Shown here one piece after another: positions 2-61,965 of a stretch of DNA of 64,000 nt. The notes under the pieces are model-generated. The model saw only the letters and a list, made by a program, of their open reading frames with translations. It made no database searches and was not told the origin of the DNA. Positions within the stretch are counted from its first letter, which is position 1; each line of letters opens with the position of its first letter. The stretch covers positions 186,001 through 250,000 of the forward strand of contig JAJQRF010000001.1 in NCBI GenBank assembly GCA_021228405.1. Direction: 5' to 3'. Origin of the DNA: Pyrinomonadaceae bacterium. Its GTDB lineage: Bacteria; Acidobacteriota; Blastocatellia; Pyrinomonadales; Pyrinomonadaceae. The translations under genes were made by a program, and so were the position numbers.

Positions 2-913
2 ACTGCGGCTTACCGCGTCACCGATTACAGGCGTTTTGTTAATACGCTCGAAGCCGATTATCAATTCAACAATGCGGTCGCGGCACACGCGGGTTATCGT
101 TTTACGAGCCGCCGCGCTGAAATTACGGGCTACAATTTCAACAAATTAACCGCTGTTAATGCAACCAACCCCGCATTCATCACGGAAGAGGAAGACAATC
201 AAACGAACACTTTGATCGCCGGAATGAAGATCAAACCGATCAAAAACTGGGTCATCTTCTGGGATGTCGAACGCGGTTCGGCGGACAACGTTTTCACGCG
301 TGTCGAGAATTACAAATTTATCAATTTCCGCGTCCGCAGTCGTTTGACGTTCGATAAATTCGGCTTGAGCGTTTCGGCGATCTCGAAGGACAACACGAAC
401 CCGACCGTCTCGGACGAAATTCCGCCGCGGCAGTTCGGTGCGGACATCAACAACCGCATTTACACGGGCAGTTTCGACTGGAATCCGATTTCGGAATTAT
501 CGTTCAGCACGGGCTACACCTATCAGCACCTGACGAGCGAAACGGCGATTCTTTACCCGTTGGGAACGGTCAGATTGCTCGGCATCAGCAAATTCTTCGT
601 GCGCGATCATTACGCGTTCGTCGATGTCGCGGCGCGTCCCGTCAATCGCCTTGCGATCTTTGCGAGCTACCGCATCAGCAAGGACAACGGGCAGAACGAA
701 TTTTCCTCCCTTCCGCAGAACTTCTTTACCTCGTATCCGATCGATTTCCGTTCGCCCGAAGTCCGCGTTGCCTTCCGCATCACGCGCAACATCGACTGGA
801 ATTTCGGCTACCAGTATTACAATTACAAGGAAAAATTCCAGACGCTCCAAAACTACCGAGCGCATTTGCCATACACCTCATTGAAAATCTACTTCGGCGG
901 CGGAGAACGTTAA
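2..913 (+). CDS. Outer-membrane beta-barrel protein, 5'-truncated
   Basis: The frame is open from base 2, so the gene begins upstream of the window and only its last 303 codons are seen. The protein has no long hydrophobic helix. It is built of short alternating polar/aromatic stretches typical of transmembrane beta-strands and turns, and it ends in an aromatic-rich strand (TSLKIYFGG). This supports an integral outer-membrane barrel. The nearby multihaem cytochromes make an MtrB/PioB-like porin sheath for electron transfer possible, but I see no diagnostic motif, and a TonB-type or porin barrel is equally possible. The transcript ends at the strong terminator at 937-981. Confidence 0.6.
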   Translation, partial: TAAYRVTDYRRFVNTLEADYQFNNAVAAHAGYRFTSRRAEITGYNFNKLTAVNATNPAFITEEEDNQTNTLIAGMKIKPIKNWVIFWDVERGSADNVFTRVENYKFINFRVRSRLTFDKFGLSVSAISKDNTNPTVSDEIPPRQFGADINNRIYTGSFDWNPISELSFSTGYTYQHLTSETAILYPLGTVRLLGISKFFVRDHYAFVDVAARPVNRLAIFASYRISKDNGQNEFSSLPQNFFTSYPIDFRSPEVRVAFRITRNIDWNFGYQYYNYKEKFQTLQNYRAHLPYTSLKIYFGGGER

Positions 914-2003: not shown

Positions 2004-2123
2004 CAACCAAAAGCTGATTTAAGATAAATCCTGCGCGGCGAAACTCGATTTCATTCCTTAAATTAAACTAAAACTCAATAAACATCGACATTTTAACCAA
2101 TCTGACATTTTGTCGCACTTTTT

Positions 2124-2349
2124 GCAGAAAACTTTTCTGCTGATGCAGAAATGATTTCTGCGACAGACAGAAACATTTCTGCGACCGCAAAAGTCTTCTC
2201 TGCAAATGCAGAAAACATTTCTGCAACTGACAGAAACATTTCTGCGACCGCAAAAAATAATTCTGCGACTGCAAAAACCATTTCTGCATCGGCAGAAAAC
2301 TTTTCGGCGACGCAGAAAACTTTTCTGCACCTGCAAAAAACATTTCTGC
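2124..2349. repeat. 21-bp-period array of 17-bp palindromes (array 1)
   Basis: Eleven units of 17 bp, of type GCAGAAAACTTTTCTGC (G-C-A-G-A-A-A, three variable bases, T-T-T-C-T-G-C), are separated by 4-bp spacers. Unit ends fall at 2140, 2161, 2182, 2203, 2224, 2245, 2266, 2287, 2308, 2328 and 2349: exact 21-bp spacing except one 20-bp step. Units 3-5 and 6-8 form a 63-bp higher-order repeat. Because 21 is a multiple of three and the unit lacks stops, several frames on both strands stay open, giving Ala/Ser/Glu-rich heptads. I treat this as structured DNA/RNA rather than a gene. It resembles array 2 at 58524-58770 in geometry but not in sequence. Confidence 0.9.
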
Positions 2350-2433
2350 GAACCGTTTCAATTCCTAATCACTAAAAAAACAACTGCCGAAGGTGCATTT
2401 CATTTATTTCGTAAGATCATTGAGAAAAAGATA

Positions 2434-2482: not shown

Positions 2483-2797
2483 TTATAAACCGAGCCAAAA
2501 GCGCACTTTTTCTTCTACTTCAAGCATTTGTAAATCTGTTAATGTGCCGAGTTTGCGAATTAGTTTGGCGTGTGGAATCGTGACGAGGTTTTGTGCGTCG
2601 AAGCCGCCTTTTCGTAAAAAGCGGATGTTTGATTCGACCTCAAAACGTGATTGGCGCAACGCCGTCGTATGCGGAACGAGTGTCGCAAGGGCACGGTCTT
2701 CGTCGTTCGCAGGAATGCTCAAAACCAAACACGGACGCACTTTGGCAGCATATCCCAAATCGACCAGCCAAACTTCGCCGCGATCAGGATTCGCCAT
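2483..2797 (-). CDS. MazF/PemK-family endoribonuclease toxin
   Basis: 104 residues, the usual MazF size. It shows the family N-terminus (GEVWLVDLG), the RPCLVLSIP strand that carries the catalytic Arg region, and the C-terminal pattern with LGTLTDLQMLEVEEKVRFWLGL. Members are sequence-specific mRNA interferases held inactive by a co-encoded antitoxin. The start overlaps the upstream antitoxin gene by 14 bp, which indicates translational coupling. Its own terminator follows at 2434-2466. The family call is firm; target sequence and activity cannot be read from the DNA. Confidence 0.85.
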   Translation of the reverse strand: MANPDRGEVWLVDLGYAAKVRPCLVLSIPANDEDRALATLVPHTTALRQSRFEVESNIRFLRKGGFDAQNLVTIPHAKLIRKLGTLTDLQMLEVEEKVRFWLGL

Positions 2798-18122: not shown

Positions 18123-20132
18123 TTAATTTGCAAAGGTTGAAATCGAAATTTCTGAATTCGATCTGTGAGCCGCGAGATTTTCAGCCGCATTCGTCAGTTT
18201 ATAAGAACCGATCAAACCGAGCATTTCCTGCGATTGCCCGGCTAACTCTTCCGCCGCGCTTGCCGATTCTTCCGAATTTGCCGCCGTTTGCTGGGTGACG
18301 ATGTTCATTTGTTCGACGGCAATATTCAATTGTTCCAAACCTTCGCTCTGCTGTTCGGTTGCGGCGGCTATCTCGGCGTTCACGCTCGAAACTTTTTCGA
18401 CTTCGACCATTATCGCCTCTAAATCTTTAGAAACACGGTTATTGATTCCCGCGCCCTTTTCGGTATTTTCAACCCACTCATTTATCAATTTCGAGGTAAT
18501 TTTTGCCGCGTCAGCCGAGCGCATTGCGAGATTGCGAACTTCTTCGGCGACGACCGCAAAACCTTTTCCTGCATCTCCGGCGCGTGCGGCTTCGACGGCG
18601 GCATTGAGCGCGAGCAGATTCGTCTGAAAAGCGATTTCTTCGATCGTTTTTACTACTTTGACGGTCGAGCCGGACGATTCCCTGATCTTTTCGACTGCTT
18701 CGTTCAAACTGTTCATCGAAGAAATTCCTTCGTGTGTGATGCGCCGCGCGTTTTCCGCCAGAATCCGCGCTTCGTTTGAATTTCCGGCGTTTTGCCGTGT
18801 CATCGCCGCGATTTCGTGCAGTGAACTCGAAACTTCTTCCAACGTCGAAGCCTGTTCCGACGAGCTTTGCGCCAAATGTGCGCTTCCGTCGCTGATCTGT
18901 CCAGCCGCCGCCGCCACCTCTTCCGCACCGCTCGAAATCTGCTTCATTCCTTCATCGAGATTTTCAAATGCCGTATTCAGCGATTCCTTGATCTTGGCAA
19001 ATTCGCCCTTGTAACCGCCTTGCATTTTTACGGTCAGATCGCGTTTGGCGGCTCTTTCGAGACAATTTGAAGCCTCGACTATCGGTTCGGCGACTGCATC
19101 TATAACGTGATTTATGCCGCCGATAAGTTCTGCATACGCGCCTTCAAATTTAAGCACGTCGCCGCGTTTTGAAAGTTCTCCGGCTTTCACCGATTCGATT
19201 AAAAATTGTGTTTCACGATTCAGATTTTTGAGAGATTCACTGACTTTTATGAAGTTTTTCGTCAATTCGTCCTTTTCGGATTTCGGTTCGAGCCGGATGA
19301 ATTCCAGATCGCCTTGGCTGATAAATTCGGCGGCGCGGGCAATGTCTCTGGTATGGACGATTGAGCTTCGCAAGGAATCGGCTAAAACCCCGATCTCGTC
19401 CTTTGAACGATATTCAATTGTTTGCTCGATGTTTCCGACTGCCAGTTTTGAAGCAACTTCCGACATTTCACGCATCGGATTCAGTAACGAACGGGCGACC
19501 AAAATATTAATAATTACTGAAACGATGAAACTTACAAGTAATACGAACAGCAATTTCCAGGTTGCCCAAACTACTGTTTGATTGGAAGATTCGATGCTTT
19601 TATTGGAGTGAGTTTCGATAATATCGCCGAGATTGTCGAGTTTCACTTCCAATTCGACAAAAGTTTTATGAAACTCGGGTAGCAATTGTTTAGCCTGCTC
19701 CGGTTGTCCTGAAAAGGAAAGATTCGTCAATTTATCGGCTGATTCGAGATAGCTATTTATGTAAGGCTCAACTTCATTTATCGCGGCTTTTGCTTCGCTG
19801 TCCAGAGCGAGTTTGCTCAATTTGGTAAAGTTTGTCCGCATTTCCGATAAATATTCGGCGGTTTCCTCTTTCGTTTCGTTTATTTTCGCCTGATCTTTTT
19901 CTTCGGCATAGATTATCGATTTGTAAACGAGCAAGCTCACGCCATCGTGATACATATCCGTAATCGTAATGTGACGAATCGCCGGAAGCTGTGTTGCTCC
20001 GAGATCACTCTGTGCCGAATCCATATCGCGGATGGTCAGGTAGGAAACCAAACTAACAAAAATCAATGAAGCAAATAAAATCCCGCTCAGTAAACCTAAT
20101 TTCTTGCCGATCGTTAAATCTTTTATAGTCAT
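18123..20132 (-). CDS. Methyl-accepting chemotaxis protein 1
   Basis: 669 residues from the ATG at 20132, with AGGAAAA upstream; an in-frame extension to 20228 crosses the terminator stem and is rejected. First transmembrane helix about 12-34, a helical periplasmic sensor domain of some 150 residues (four-helix-bundle type), second transmembrane helix, HAMP region (a second HAMP-like stretch follows), and the MCP signalling hairpin with its nearly invariant tip ([20 protein letters not shown]). No CheR-tethering pentapeptide is seen at the C-terminus. The ligand is unknown. Confidence 0.9.
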
Positions 20133-57370: not shown

Positions 57371-57447
57371 AGATTTGGGATTTGGGATTTGGGATTGATT
57401 GTTAGCAAAGGTCAAATCCGCAATCTCAAATCCGCAATCCCAAATTC
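57371..57447. repeat. Heptamer-repeat inverted element before fliS
   Basis: The left arm repeats GATTTGG three times, then GATT; the right arm has five heptamers of the type CAAATCC/GCAATCC in inverse orientation, across a loop of about 20 bases. It lies downstream of fliD and 45 bp before the fliS sigma-28 promoter. Confidence 0.75.
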
Positions 57448-58013: not shown

Positions 58014-58454
58014 ATGATTATTGCCGAAACGATCAACGAAAAATCCGATTCGCTCATCGACCTTTTAACGGCGCAATGCGGCGATCTCGAAAAACTTCTC
58101 GCGCTGGCGCGTCAGGAAACCCGCGCCGCCGAGGAGAAGGATTTCGAGATGATTATGGAGATCGTTTCGGAACGTGAACTGCTTAGTCGGCGGCTTGAAA
58201 CCTTTCAACAGCAGATTTCCGAGCTTCGCGGAAAATTGACCGAAGCCGACGAACTTAACAAAACGAGAATGTCGGCAAGAGTCGTCGAGCTCGCTTCGCA
58301 AACACTCGCGCAGGATGCTACGACCAGAAAACTTTTAACTGCGTCACGGCTCGAAGCCTCGAATAAAATAATGAATCTTTCCAACACAAGACGCGGCGCA
58401 AACGCTTACATCGGCGAAAACAAACGCGGCTTGGCTTACGACCGTTGCGCCTGA
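58014..58454 (+). CDS. FliT/FlgN-like flagellar chaperone
   Basis: 146 residues from the ATG at 58014. Entirely helical with a long coiled coil (about 30-100) and a basic C-terminus. It is 8 bp after fliS, where fliT (chaperone of the cap protein FliD) usually lies. Sequence resembles FlgN about as much as FliT (both families are weakly conserved); since flgN is already present at 48384, FliT is the better guess. Confidence 0.65.
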   Translation: MIIAETINEKSDSLIDLLTAQCGDLEKLLALARQETRAAEEKDFEMIMEIVSERELLSRRLETFQQQISELRGKLTEADELNKTRMSARVVELASQTLAQDATTRKLLTASRLEASNKIMNLSNTRRGANAYIGENKRGLAYDRCA

Positions 58455-58523
58455 CAATTTGAAATTTGCCTCGAAACACATCAAAAAGACACTTTTTTGG
58501 GAAAAAAATTCTCACTTTTCGGG

Positions 58524-58770
58524 GAGTCTGGCTAGACTCCTGAGAGTTTTGCCAAAACTCCGACGAAAACTGCCGGGACTCCGAAGAGTTTTTGCACTGC
58601 TCTGAGGAAAGAAAAGAAAACTCTTTTCAGTCAATGCGGCACTCCTAGGAATTTGAATTTAACTTCTTCCAGTTCTGTAAAAACTCTGTCGGAAAACTCC
58701 AAGACTCTTGGGAAAGGTCGCAAAACTCCCGTCAGTTTCATATTTACTCTTAAGAGGGAGTTGAATCTTC
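58524..58770. repeat. 21-bp-period array of degenerate palindromes (array 2)
   Basis: Twelve 17-bp units with 4-bp spacers. The clearest unit is GAGTTTTGCCAAAACTC at 58544-58560; the first, at 58524-58539, is also a perfect dyad. Units end in (A)CTC at 58539, 58560, 58581, 58602, 58623, 58644, 58686, 58707, 58728 and 58749 (58665 and 58770 are diverged): an exact 21-bp period. Left arms are more diverged than right arms. It fills most of the 388-bp gap 58455-58842 between the fliT-like gene and the terminator. Same geometry as array 1 at 2124-2349. Confidence 0.85.
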
Positions 58771-58781
58771 ATTTCAAAAAA

Positions 58782-58811
58782 AAAAAGACTGAAGAATTCT
58801 TCAGTCTTTTT
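58782..58811. terminator. Bidirectional terminator between convergent genes
   Basis: AGACTGAAGAATTCTTCAGTCT is preceded by a long A-run and followed by TTTTTATTTTT, so it can end transcription from both the fliC-side genes and the regulator gene at 58843. The palindrome is perfect over 30 bases (58782-58811). Confidence 0.9.
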
Positions 58812-58842
58812 ATTTTTGTAATTCATAAAAATCCGCAATAAA

Positions 58843-60261
58843 TCAATCTTCGTTCACGGAAACGGTTTCCTTGTCTTCTTCTTCGACTTCGATGTTGAGG
58901 CGTTTGATCTTTTCGACGAGCGTGGTGCGTTTCATATTCAGCAATTTCGCCGCCTGCATTTTGTTGCCGCCCGTTTTTTCGAGCGTTTGAAGCAGTAATT
59001 CGCGTTCGACCTGCGAAACTACGCCCGAAAAATCGATTCCTTCGTCGGGAATATTGGTCGGAATCACGGTCGAAGTCGTCGGGATTTGGAAGAGATTCGT
59101 TTGATTTTTGATCTCTTCGGGAAAATGTTCGAGATTGACGGTCGGGCTGATGCCCGAAAAAACGGCGGCGCGTTCCATACAGTTTTGAAGCTGGCGCACG
59201 TTGCCGGGAAAATTATAGGAAATGAGCGAATGATGCGCTTCGTCGGCGATGACTTTTTCGGGCAGACCGACCGATCTACAGAATTTTTCGAGCAATCCCT
59301 GCGCGATCGGCATAATGTCGTCGGGACGTTCGCGCAGAGGCGGAACGCGCAAATGCACGACGTTCAGACGATGATAAAGGTCGGGACGAAAACTGCCGTC
59401 GGCGATCTTTTTGTCCAAATCCGCGCTCGTCGCCGCGACGACGCGGACATCGACCTTCAAAGTTTTCGACGAACCCAGTTTTTCAAATTCGCTTTCCTGC
59501 AAAACCCGTAAAAGTTTCGACTGCAAAGCCATATTCATATCGCCGATCTCGTCCAGAAACAGAGTTCCGCCGTCGGCTTGTTCAAAACGTCCTTTGCGGT
59601 CGGTCTGCGCGCCCGTGAACGCGCCTTTGACGTGTCCGAAAAGCTCGTCTTCGAGAAGCTGTTCGGGAACGGCGGCGCAGTTCAGCGCGATGAACGGCGC
59701 GTCGGCGCGCGGACTCGTAAAATGAATCGCTTTGGCGATCAACTCCTTTCCCGTTCCCGTTTCGCCCGTCACCAGAACGTTGATTTTATAAGGTGCGATC
59801 GTCTTGACCTGCTCTAATAAATTGAGCATCACGGTTGATTTTGCGATCAACGGCGAATTTGAAACCGTCATAATCGTAACGGGCGAAGGCGTTTGCTGTA
59901 TTTTTTCGACCGCAACCCGAATCGCACTTATCAAATCGCTCAAACCGACAGGCTTGCACAGAAAATCAGCCGCACCGAGTTTCATCGCCTGAACCGCCGT
60001 ATCGATCGTTCCGAAACCTGTCATCACCAGAATATAAGCGTTCGGATTTGCTTGCAGACAGTGCGGCAAAATCTCCAGACCGCTCTTACCCGGCAAATTC
60101 ACGTCGGTCAATAAAATATCGAATTTTTCTTCGCTTAGACGTTCAATGGCGGCTTCGGCGGAGCCTAAACCTTCGGGCGAGTGACCTTCGAGAGCGATCG
60201 ATTCGAGAAGTAATGAGCGAAGACGTGAATCATCTTCAACGACAAGAATTTTGGTTTTCAT
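58843..60261 (-). CDS. Sigma-54-dependent response regulator, FlrC/NtrC type
   Basis: 472 residues: receiver domain (EDD at 9-11, phospho-Asp near 53 in LLTDVNLPG, Lys in CKPV), AAA+ domain with Walker A (GETGTGKE), the sigma-54-contact loop GAFTGA, Walker B (GGTLFLDEIGDM) and R-fingers, then a Fis-type helix-turn-helix (GGNKMQAAKLLNMKRTTLVEKIKRL). Placed divergently from flgB behind a sigma-54 promoter, so it very likely activates middle flagellar genes. No partner histidine kinase gene is in the window. Confidence 0.9.
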   Translation of the reverse strand: MKTKILVVEDDSRLRSLLLESIALEGHSPEGLGSAEAAIERLSEEKFDILLTDVNLPGKSGLEILPHCLQANPNAYILVMTGFGTIDTAVQAMKLGAADFLCKPVGLSDLISAIRVAVEKIQQTPSPVTIMTVSNSPLIAKSTVMLNLLEQVKTIAPYKINVLVTGETGTGKELIAKAIHFTSPRADAPFIALNCAAVPEQLLEDELFGHVKGAFTGAQTDRKGRFEQADGGTLFLDEIGDMNMALQSKLLRVLQESEFEKLGSSKTLKVDVRVVAATSADLDKKIADGSFRPDLYHRLNVVHLRVPPLRERPDDIMPIAQGLLEKFCRSVGLPEKVIADEAHHSLISYNFPGNVRQLQNCMERAAVFSGISPTVNLEHFPEEIKNQTNLFQIPTTSTVIPTNIPDEGIDFSGVVSQVERELLLQTLEKTGGNKMQAAKLLNMKRTTLVEKIKRLNIEVEEEDKETVSVNED

Positions 60262-60882: not shown

Positions 60883-60975
60883 GATTTGGGATTTGGAAAT
60901 GCAGATTTTAAGGTTTAGATTTTCAATCTCTTATCTGCATATCAATCCAAAATCCAAAATCCAAAATCCAAAATT
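60883..60975. repeat. Heptamer-repeat inverted element before flgC
   Basis: Left arm: two GATTTGG heptamers. Right arm: four AATCCAA heptamers. Inner arms (AATGCAGAT and ATCTGCAT) form a second stem. It ends 3 bases before the flgC ATG, which has no Shine-Dalgarno sequence. Confidence 0.75.
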
Positions 60976-61850: not shown

Positions 61851-61965
61851 ATTTTGGATTTTGGATTTTGGATTTTGGATTGATGAAACAATCGTGATCC
61901 GAAACAAATTGAAAATGTATTTATAACGGCAAATCCAAAATCCAAAATCCAAAATCCAAAATCAA
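61851..61965. repeat. Heptamer-repeat inverted element before fliF
   Basis: About four TTTTGGA heptamers on the left and four AATCCAA heptamers on the right form a long near-perfect inverted repeat across a 50-base loop. It ends 3 bases before the fliF ATG, which has no Shine-Dalgarno sequence. Confidence 0.8.

Follow-up and report, generated by a model that had tools for sequence, protein, structure and literature searches.

Tandem operator and enhancer arrays, plasmid iterons and centromere repeats (parC, omega heptads) are all built of phased half-sites for a dimeric protein, and they occur as single loci, usually beside the gene of their own reader. The REP/BIME sequences have gyrase, IHF or Pol I as binding partners and show a bias toward 3' ends, and REPs are tied to RAYT transposases. 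In two published accounts, REPs are described as 20 to 40 bp long (PMC3733652) and as usually present in more than 100 copies per genome, with regularly spaced REPs of alternating orientation serving as protein-binding sites (PMC2817692). The window analyzed here, a 64,000-nt stretch of a Pyrinomonadaceae genome, carries an array of partly palindromic 21-bp units (array 2, Table 1) between a flgN/fliT-like gene and an ntrC-family gene. It belongs to a class of arrays that share a period of 20 to 22 bp across unrelated sequences. Judging from the sequences, we put at roughly 0.5 the probability that such arrays are dispersed elements that carry no cargo and serve as platforms on which a dimeric DNA-binding protein, probably a cooperative one, occupies phased half-sites.

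Array 2 and the copies of its element

Array 2 consists of 12 units of 21 bp (58521-58772) that lie inside a 388-bp intergenic gap. The preliminary description had reported twelve unit ends, ACTC or a variant, at exact 21-bp steps, and when the sequence is written in 21-bp rows (58532-58763) these are indeed found in a single column in 12 of 12 rows, with ACTC in nine of them and GCTC, ACTT and CTTC in one each. The gap holds 10 ACTC motifs in total, 9 of them sharing one 21-bp phase, compared to a maximum of 3 in 2,000 dinucleotide shuffles; the identity at lag 21 is 0.43, versus 0.32 or less at all other lags from 15 to 30, and was reached in none of 2,000 shuffles. The 17+4 geometry is correct for array 2, and both dyads (58524-58539 and 58544-58560, GAGTTTTGCCAAAACTC) are at the positions claimed, the first being longer than had been noted. 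The element is larger than the previously given bounds, 58524-58770, and extends from a head that starts at about 58458, the first ~20 nt of which are poorly conserved in array 2, to about 58772, where the periodic part ends. The region of the terminator-like hairpin that follows (58771-58822) has near copies elsewhere in the genome, such as C19:100430-100465 (92% over 36 bp).

Table 1. Features of the window discussed in the text
Feature	Coordinates	Strand	Remarks
Array 1	2123..2351	.	Same class as array 2; half-site GCAG/CTGC (GCAG-N9-CTGC)
flgN/fliT-like gene	58014..58454	+	3' end toward head; FliT E 2.9e-4, FlgN E 8.3e-4, neither reaching the Pfam cut-off
Conserved head of element	58458..58520	+	A/T-rich, CTCACTTTTC at end, then GGGG; common to 8 family-A copies
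First unit	58521..58541	+	Longer even-axis dyad GGAGTCTGGCTAGACTCC (58522-58539); arms co-vary between copies
Eleven further 21-bp units	58542..58772	+	Consensus GART-N9-AYTC + 4-bp spacer
Bidirectional terminator-like hairpin	58782..58811	.	Between convergent genes, just beyond array 2
NtrC-family regulator	58843..60261	-	3' end toward array tail; Response_reg, Sigma54_activat, HTH_8

DNA searches of the organism's own 5.72-Mb genome revealed eight copies of this element, referred to here as family A, each ~315 bp long and consisting of a ~60-nt head and about 12 to 13 units in a 21-bp register (in the L056 copy, the last unit is degenerate). A profile of the first 147 positions of the same eight copies (R1) recovered eight full heads at 98.9 to 110.5 bits, with the next match at 27.3 bits; as R1 was built from those copies, its search adds only that a ninth full copy was not found. 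A search with the family-A geometry pattern returned 80 sites, versus 9 for the reversed pattern. The pairwise identity of the copies across 12 units is 43 to 74%, and all of them can be written in fixed 21-bp rows with a single correction, one base at the head of L048 (MAFFT, applied to the first 148 columns, also places one base in the head of L058). Retention of the register between copies this diverged supports the earlier suggestion that function depends on spacing. Free local alignment introduces compensating 1-base gaps inside the pairs array 2/L049, L052/L048 and array 1/its paralogue, as well as a larger number of gaps in the pairs of L167 and L050/L051. When distant subgroups of family A are compared, the same-row identity in non-core columns is 0.39, versus 0.32 to 0.41 at other offsets, a weak excess, so that unit-by-unit descent is clear only within subgroups and position-by-position descent between the distant ones was dropped. 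In L048 and L052, the similarity extends past the array on both sides, over 364 aligned columns.

The family-A copies are found in diverse gene neighborhoods. Six of the eight occupy convergent gaps, versus a background of 77 of 460 gaps of at least 50 bp and 15 of 122 gaps of at least 300 bp. Among the 25 arrays with both neighbors known, 9 are in convergent, 12 in co-directional and 4 in divergent gaps; outside family A, 3 of 17 are convergent, which is about the background, so that the convergent excess lies entirely in family A. The flanking genes, 14 of 16 of which were scanned, are unrelated to each other and include no cargo gene: they are flagellar genes and genes for a periplasmic binding protein, an amylase, Omp85, a GGDEF protein, an M16 peptidase, alanine dehydrogenase, a VWA-domain protein and dnaK- and dnaJ-like proteins. 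The copy at L055:9978-10190 lies between the dnaK-like and dnaJ-like genes, which have the same orientation. A co-occurring DNA-binding gene, which the preliminary description had proposed to look for, did not emerge, as none is common to the eight copies in this set of 14 of 16 flanking genes, in which the ntrC gene beside array 2 is the sole regulator.

At the flgN-ntrC junction, the intergenic distance is 18, 36, 52, 89 and 333 bp in five relatives, and a lag scan detected no 21-bp array in any of them, so the element was either gained here or lost there. This comparison covered eight loci, five of which have a flgN-like gene (recognized by eye), two have another gene and in one none was found; the sister genome (L068) carries a different gene beside ntrC and therefore gives no empty site.

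These patterns bear on the main rival to the protein platform, a selfish non-autonomous mobile element whose units bind a transposition or replication protein and which has no function for the cell. Such an element would account for whole-element paralogues at unrelated loci (the eight family-A heads and copies of two further families), for a cargo-free array 2 at a junction where four of the five relatives have a short gap, and for the preference of family A for convergent gaps, where insertion does little harm. However, neither a target-site duplication nor a terminal inverted repeat was seen by eye in the family-A rows, the nine Y1/RAYT transposases of this genome are no more than are found in relatives with no such array in their 20-kb samples (up to 16), and the register held between diverged copies suggests constraint after insertion. 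A mobile cargo or a RAYT link was looked for and not found: there is no cargo gene among the 14 flanking genes scanned, and no Y1 match is at a family-A locus among the eight of nine own-genome matches listed. Array-2 DNA had no match in the plasmid and phage collections. A selfish origin is possible, if distinctly less probable than the protein platform, and the two could both be true.

Half-sites and arm pairing

The family-A unit can be written as GART-N9-AYTC plus 4 bp, and its core is well kept across 96 units (G in 88, A in 78, T in 91 and C in 92). Each copy thus offers ~24 half-sites of alternating orientation, whose centres are alternately 13 and 8 bp apart, which makes 21 bp for each pair. 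Of 30 arrays, among them two of the sister genome and one that lies within a predicted gene, 17 show more dyad symmetry than column-permuted controls (at 0.05 or below) and 13 do not.

Palindromic units could also form a transcribed structured RNA in which 17-nt hairpins follow one another. The predicted folds are more stable than those of shuffled sequences, with z of -3.2 and -2.4 for the two strands of array 2, -8.8 for L167 and -13.1 for array 1, and the arms of the first family-A unit do co-vary (54 of 64 pairs complementary, versus 45.2 +/- 2.1 in shuffles). Units 1-11 of family A behave differently: 341 of 616 pairs are complementary, versus 331.1 +/- 6.9 after shuffling of the right-hand letters between copies and 342.6 +/- 7.6 after shuffling between units (the even axis holds only for the first unit, the other units being tested on another axis). 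Pooling of 28 untrimmed arrays, with the axis set from column composition alone, gave 1187 complementary pairs versus 1211.4 +/- 12.4 (z -2.0). A 24-array version, with L051 and array 1 trimmed and without L056, L061, L209 and L210, all of which have positive z in the best-pairing-axis test, gave 1038 versus 1057.1 +/- 10.4 (z -1.8). The z of 4.4 obtained over the 28 arrays with a best-pairing axis is due to selection bias in the choice of that axis. Single arrays depart from independence both ways (L056, z 2.7; L158:1411, z 2.4; L158:14558, z -3.6; L209, z -3.9), and the negative pooled sum owes much to L158:14558, L167:9888 and L209, with unlike halves being preferred in the first two (z -3.6 and -2.7). 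The bias of G-T versus A-C mismatches, significant in some single arrays, also goes in both directions.

Compensatory changes of the kind expected of structured noncoding RNA are thus confined to the first family-A unit and, weakly, to single arrays. Furthermore, the 18 Rfam matches at E up to 1 are all below the gathering score, the surroundings of array 2 showed no promoter-like site, and hairpins do not need fixed spacing. Despite its good folding scores, the hairpin RNA was rejected on the failure of arm covariation in family-A units 1-11 and in the pooled arrays, and we regard it as unlikely. The two halves of a unit vary independently, unlike the arms of a hairpin and as expected of protein half-sites; the lack of arm coupling counts against pairing and is, taken alone, no proof of protein binding.

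A protein platform best fits the features seen together here: conserved spacing, half-sites that vary independently and alternate in orientation, and the lack of any cargo. On such a platform, the conserved head would be followed by ~12 units, each with two inverted half-sites, GART ... AYTC, on which a dimeric protein would assemble cooperatively, with two helical turns per pair. Proteins of the same class but of different specificity would read the other families that share this geometry, and by analogy with BIMEs the arrays in intergenic gaps would influence looping, insulation or the local topology of the DNA.

Arrays of period 20 to 22 bp in the genome and its relatives

The genome-wide scan that the preliminary description had called for was run as a search for tandem self-similarity at lags 8 to 45 in 858 kb (15% of the 5.72-Mb genome), part of which was picked for containing array matches. 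Of the 37 non-coding tandem arrays detected, 33 have a period of 20 to 22 bp or double: the best lag is 20 in five, 21 in 21, 22 in two, 41 in two and 42 in three, the remaining ones being 14 (two), 17 (one) and 25 (one). Nine further regions, of which four have lag 21, overlap predicted genes; the coding assignments are approximate because the gene calls come from a home-made codon-usage script. In the 454 kb least prone to selection bias, which leave out the window and the stretches known to cover informative earlier matches, 14 arrays with a period of 20 to 22 bp or double were found, which translates into an estimated total of roughly 180 arrays per genome, or ~1 per ~32 kb; this is likelier low than high, since three of the eight family-A copies (array 2, L049 and L056) are under the scan threshold. 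Outside family A, the number of units ranges from about 8 to 16 between arrays.

A class defined by spacing, as previously proposed, thus holds for a 20-22 bp geometry across unrelated sequences, but its period is not only 21 bp: seven of the 37 non-coding arrays have periods of 20 or 22 bp and would rotate round relaxed 10.5-bp DNA, so phasing on one face is not strict. Arrays of the same look include those of period 20 at L059:18781-19098, L149:8607-8888, L154:19603-19914, L155:7075-7371 and 19164-19481 and L159:4663-4865, and those of period 22 at L064:17124-17416 and L066:5260-5554. Array 1, which had been described as sharing the geometry of array 2, is real and has a different half-site, but it contains one 20-bp step; its sole paralogue at high similarity is at C19:308710 (79% over 231 bp). 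It adjoins a gene for a PemK/MazF-like toxin (2483-2797, minus strand; Pfam E 6e-12). The motifs of the unrelated families sharing the 20-22 bp geometry were recognized by eye: the L167 family, to which loci on contigs 11, 12 and 19 are similar, has TGATACTT/AAGTATCA mixed with CCACACTT/AAGTGTGG, the L158 family has GAGATTA/GAGCGTA mixtures, and in both L158 and L167 whole units are present in both orientations. L158:14558-14840 and L167:9888-10160 have two half-site flavors per unit and the same hetero-unit both ways within one array. A different repeat class, with a period of 7 or 14, is represented between flagellar genes of the window by heptanucleotide repeats (57372-57445, 60944-60974, 61851-61881 and 61931-61963; units GATTTGG, AATCCAA, ATTTTGG and AAATCCA), and repeats of like period and other sequence are found in relatives (loci L210 and L212).

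As 21 bp equal seven codons, the periodicity might reflect coding for heptad (coiled-coil) repeats. Indeed, 4 of 25 lag-21 regions overlap predicted genes by half or more, and 16 of 27 arrays, array 1 included, have at least one frame open throughout, although with a period of 21 bp this readily arises by chance. The other 21 of the 25 lag-21 regions are outside genes in the home-made prediction, 20- and 22-bp arrays would break the frame, and for array 2 the heptad reading is ruled out by stops in all six frames. Overall, we assign this explanation practically no weight.

Neutral minisatellites, functionless products of replication slippage, would explain the near-identical units of some arrays (L274 in the sister genome), and a free local alignment in which L050 and L053, of another family, differ by one whole 21-bp unit indicates that tandem duplication or loss does occur. 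Slippage fits poorly, however, with a single period window (20-22) across unrelated sequences and few arrays at other lags, with diverged units kept in register at about 12 to 13 units in eight family-A copies, and with the ntrC loci of mixed phyla, 781 kb in total, in which the scan at a threshold of 0.52 detected no array of such a lag (at the looser threshold of 0.50, three lag-21 loci that are one run of N and two G+C-rich non-array-like stretches). We consider it improbable, slightly more so than the hairpin RNA.

The closest ntrC relatives are Pyrinomonadaceae (best identity, 78%), and no other genome of the same genus is among the relatives listed. Period-21 arrays were detected in three other genera of the family, namely, g17 (genome G074: L209, L210 and L274; 225 kb sampled in g17), g13 (G012: L279 and L281; 117 kb) and g24 (G023: L289, L290 and L293; 91 kb), where the regions were counted without gene prediction; the 16-kb array of L279, the L289 array and L274 were brought in by profile search and the others independently. 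In 412 kb of other relatives, the single lag-21 region is coding-looking by eye. The half-site of the L289 array is, judged by eye, of the GCAG/CTGC type known from array 1, but its inner spacing differs. Array-2 DNA itself had no match in 59 relatives at E 0.001, and R1 produced weak matches (18.8 to 23.4 bits) in 5 of 98 other genomes of the family, those in G012, G023 and G074 falling on 20-21 bp arrays of other sequence and those in G005 and G094 not.

A more far-reaching proposal is that these arrays represent a new class in Pyrinomonadaceae, with on the order of 100 to 200 arrays per genome in many sequence families. An expanded family of DNA-binding proteins would supply a separate reader for each of them; the shared code would then lie in the geometry (about 12 dimers, each spanning two helical turns), and the sequence would act as the address. 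We regard it as speculative and rather doubtful, somewhat more so than a selfish origin.

Comparison with known systems

No description of such arrays was found in the literature at the level of titles and abstract openings. Similarly to CRISPR, the arrays are polar, a conserved head being followed by partly palindromic units set at regular intervals; unlike CRISPR, the units are 21 bp long and degenerate throughout, with no constant repeat alternating with variable spacers, the 4-bp spacers being too short for that. With bacterial minisatellites (VNTRs) they share intergenic head-to-tail repeats; they differ from them in a near-constant period across sequences (33 of 37 at 20-22 bp or double, instead of free variation of period and unit number) and, in family A, in a near-constant unit number with diverged units in register. 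The inverted half-sites, independent variation and fixed spacing seen in family A are those of tandem operator arrays; in contrast to operators and iterons, an estimated ~180 loci are dispersed here, and the search beside the copies examined revealed no reader gene.

The nearest described counterparts are the BIME/REP sequences of Enterobacteria and Pseudomonas, which likewise form dispersed extragenic arrays of palindromic units; here, too, the arrays lie between predicted genes and the units or half-sites alternate in orientation. The arrays are BIME-like in anatomy and in their probable role but lack two defining features of REPs, namely, high copy number (family A has eight copies and array 1 has one high-similarity paralogue) and a RAYT link (9 Y1 matches here, 0 to 16 in 39 relatives), and they comprise unrelated families that share only a 20-22 bp period rather than one high-copy family. 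If they are protein platforms, they would add a new layer of chromosome organization or regulation in a major phylum, Acidobacteriota, and the period of 20 to 22 bp offers a simple handle for finding such arrays elsewhere. To our knowledge, what defines the bacterial extragenic repeats described so far is their sequence; the arrays described here form a class of unrelated sequences held together by spacing.
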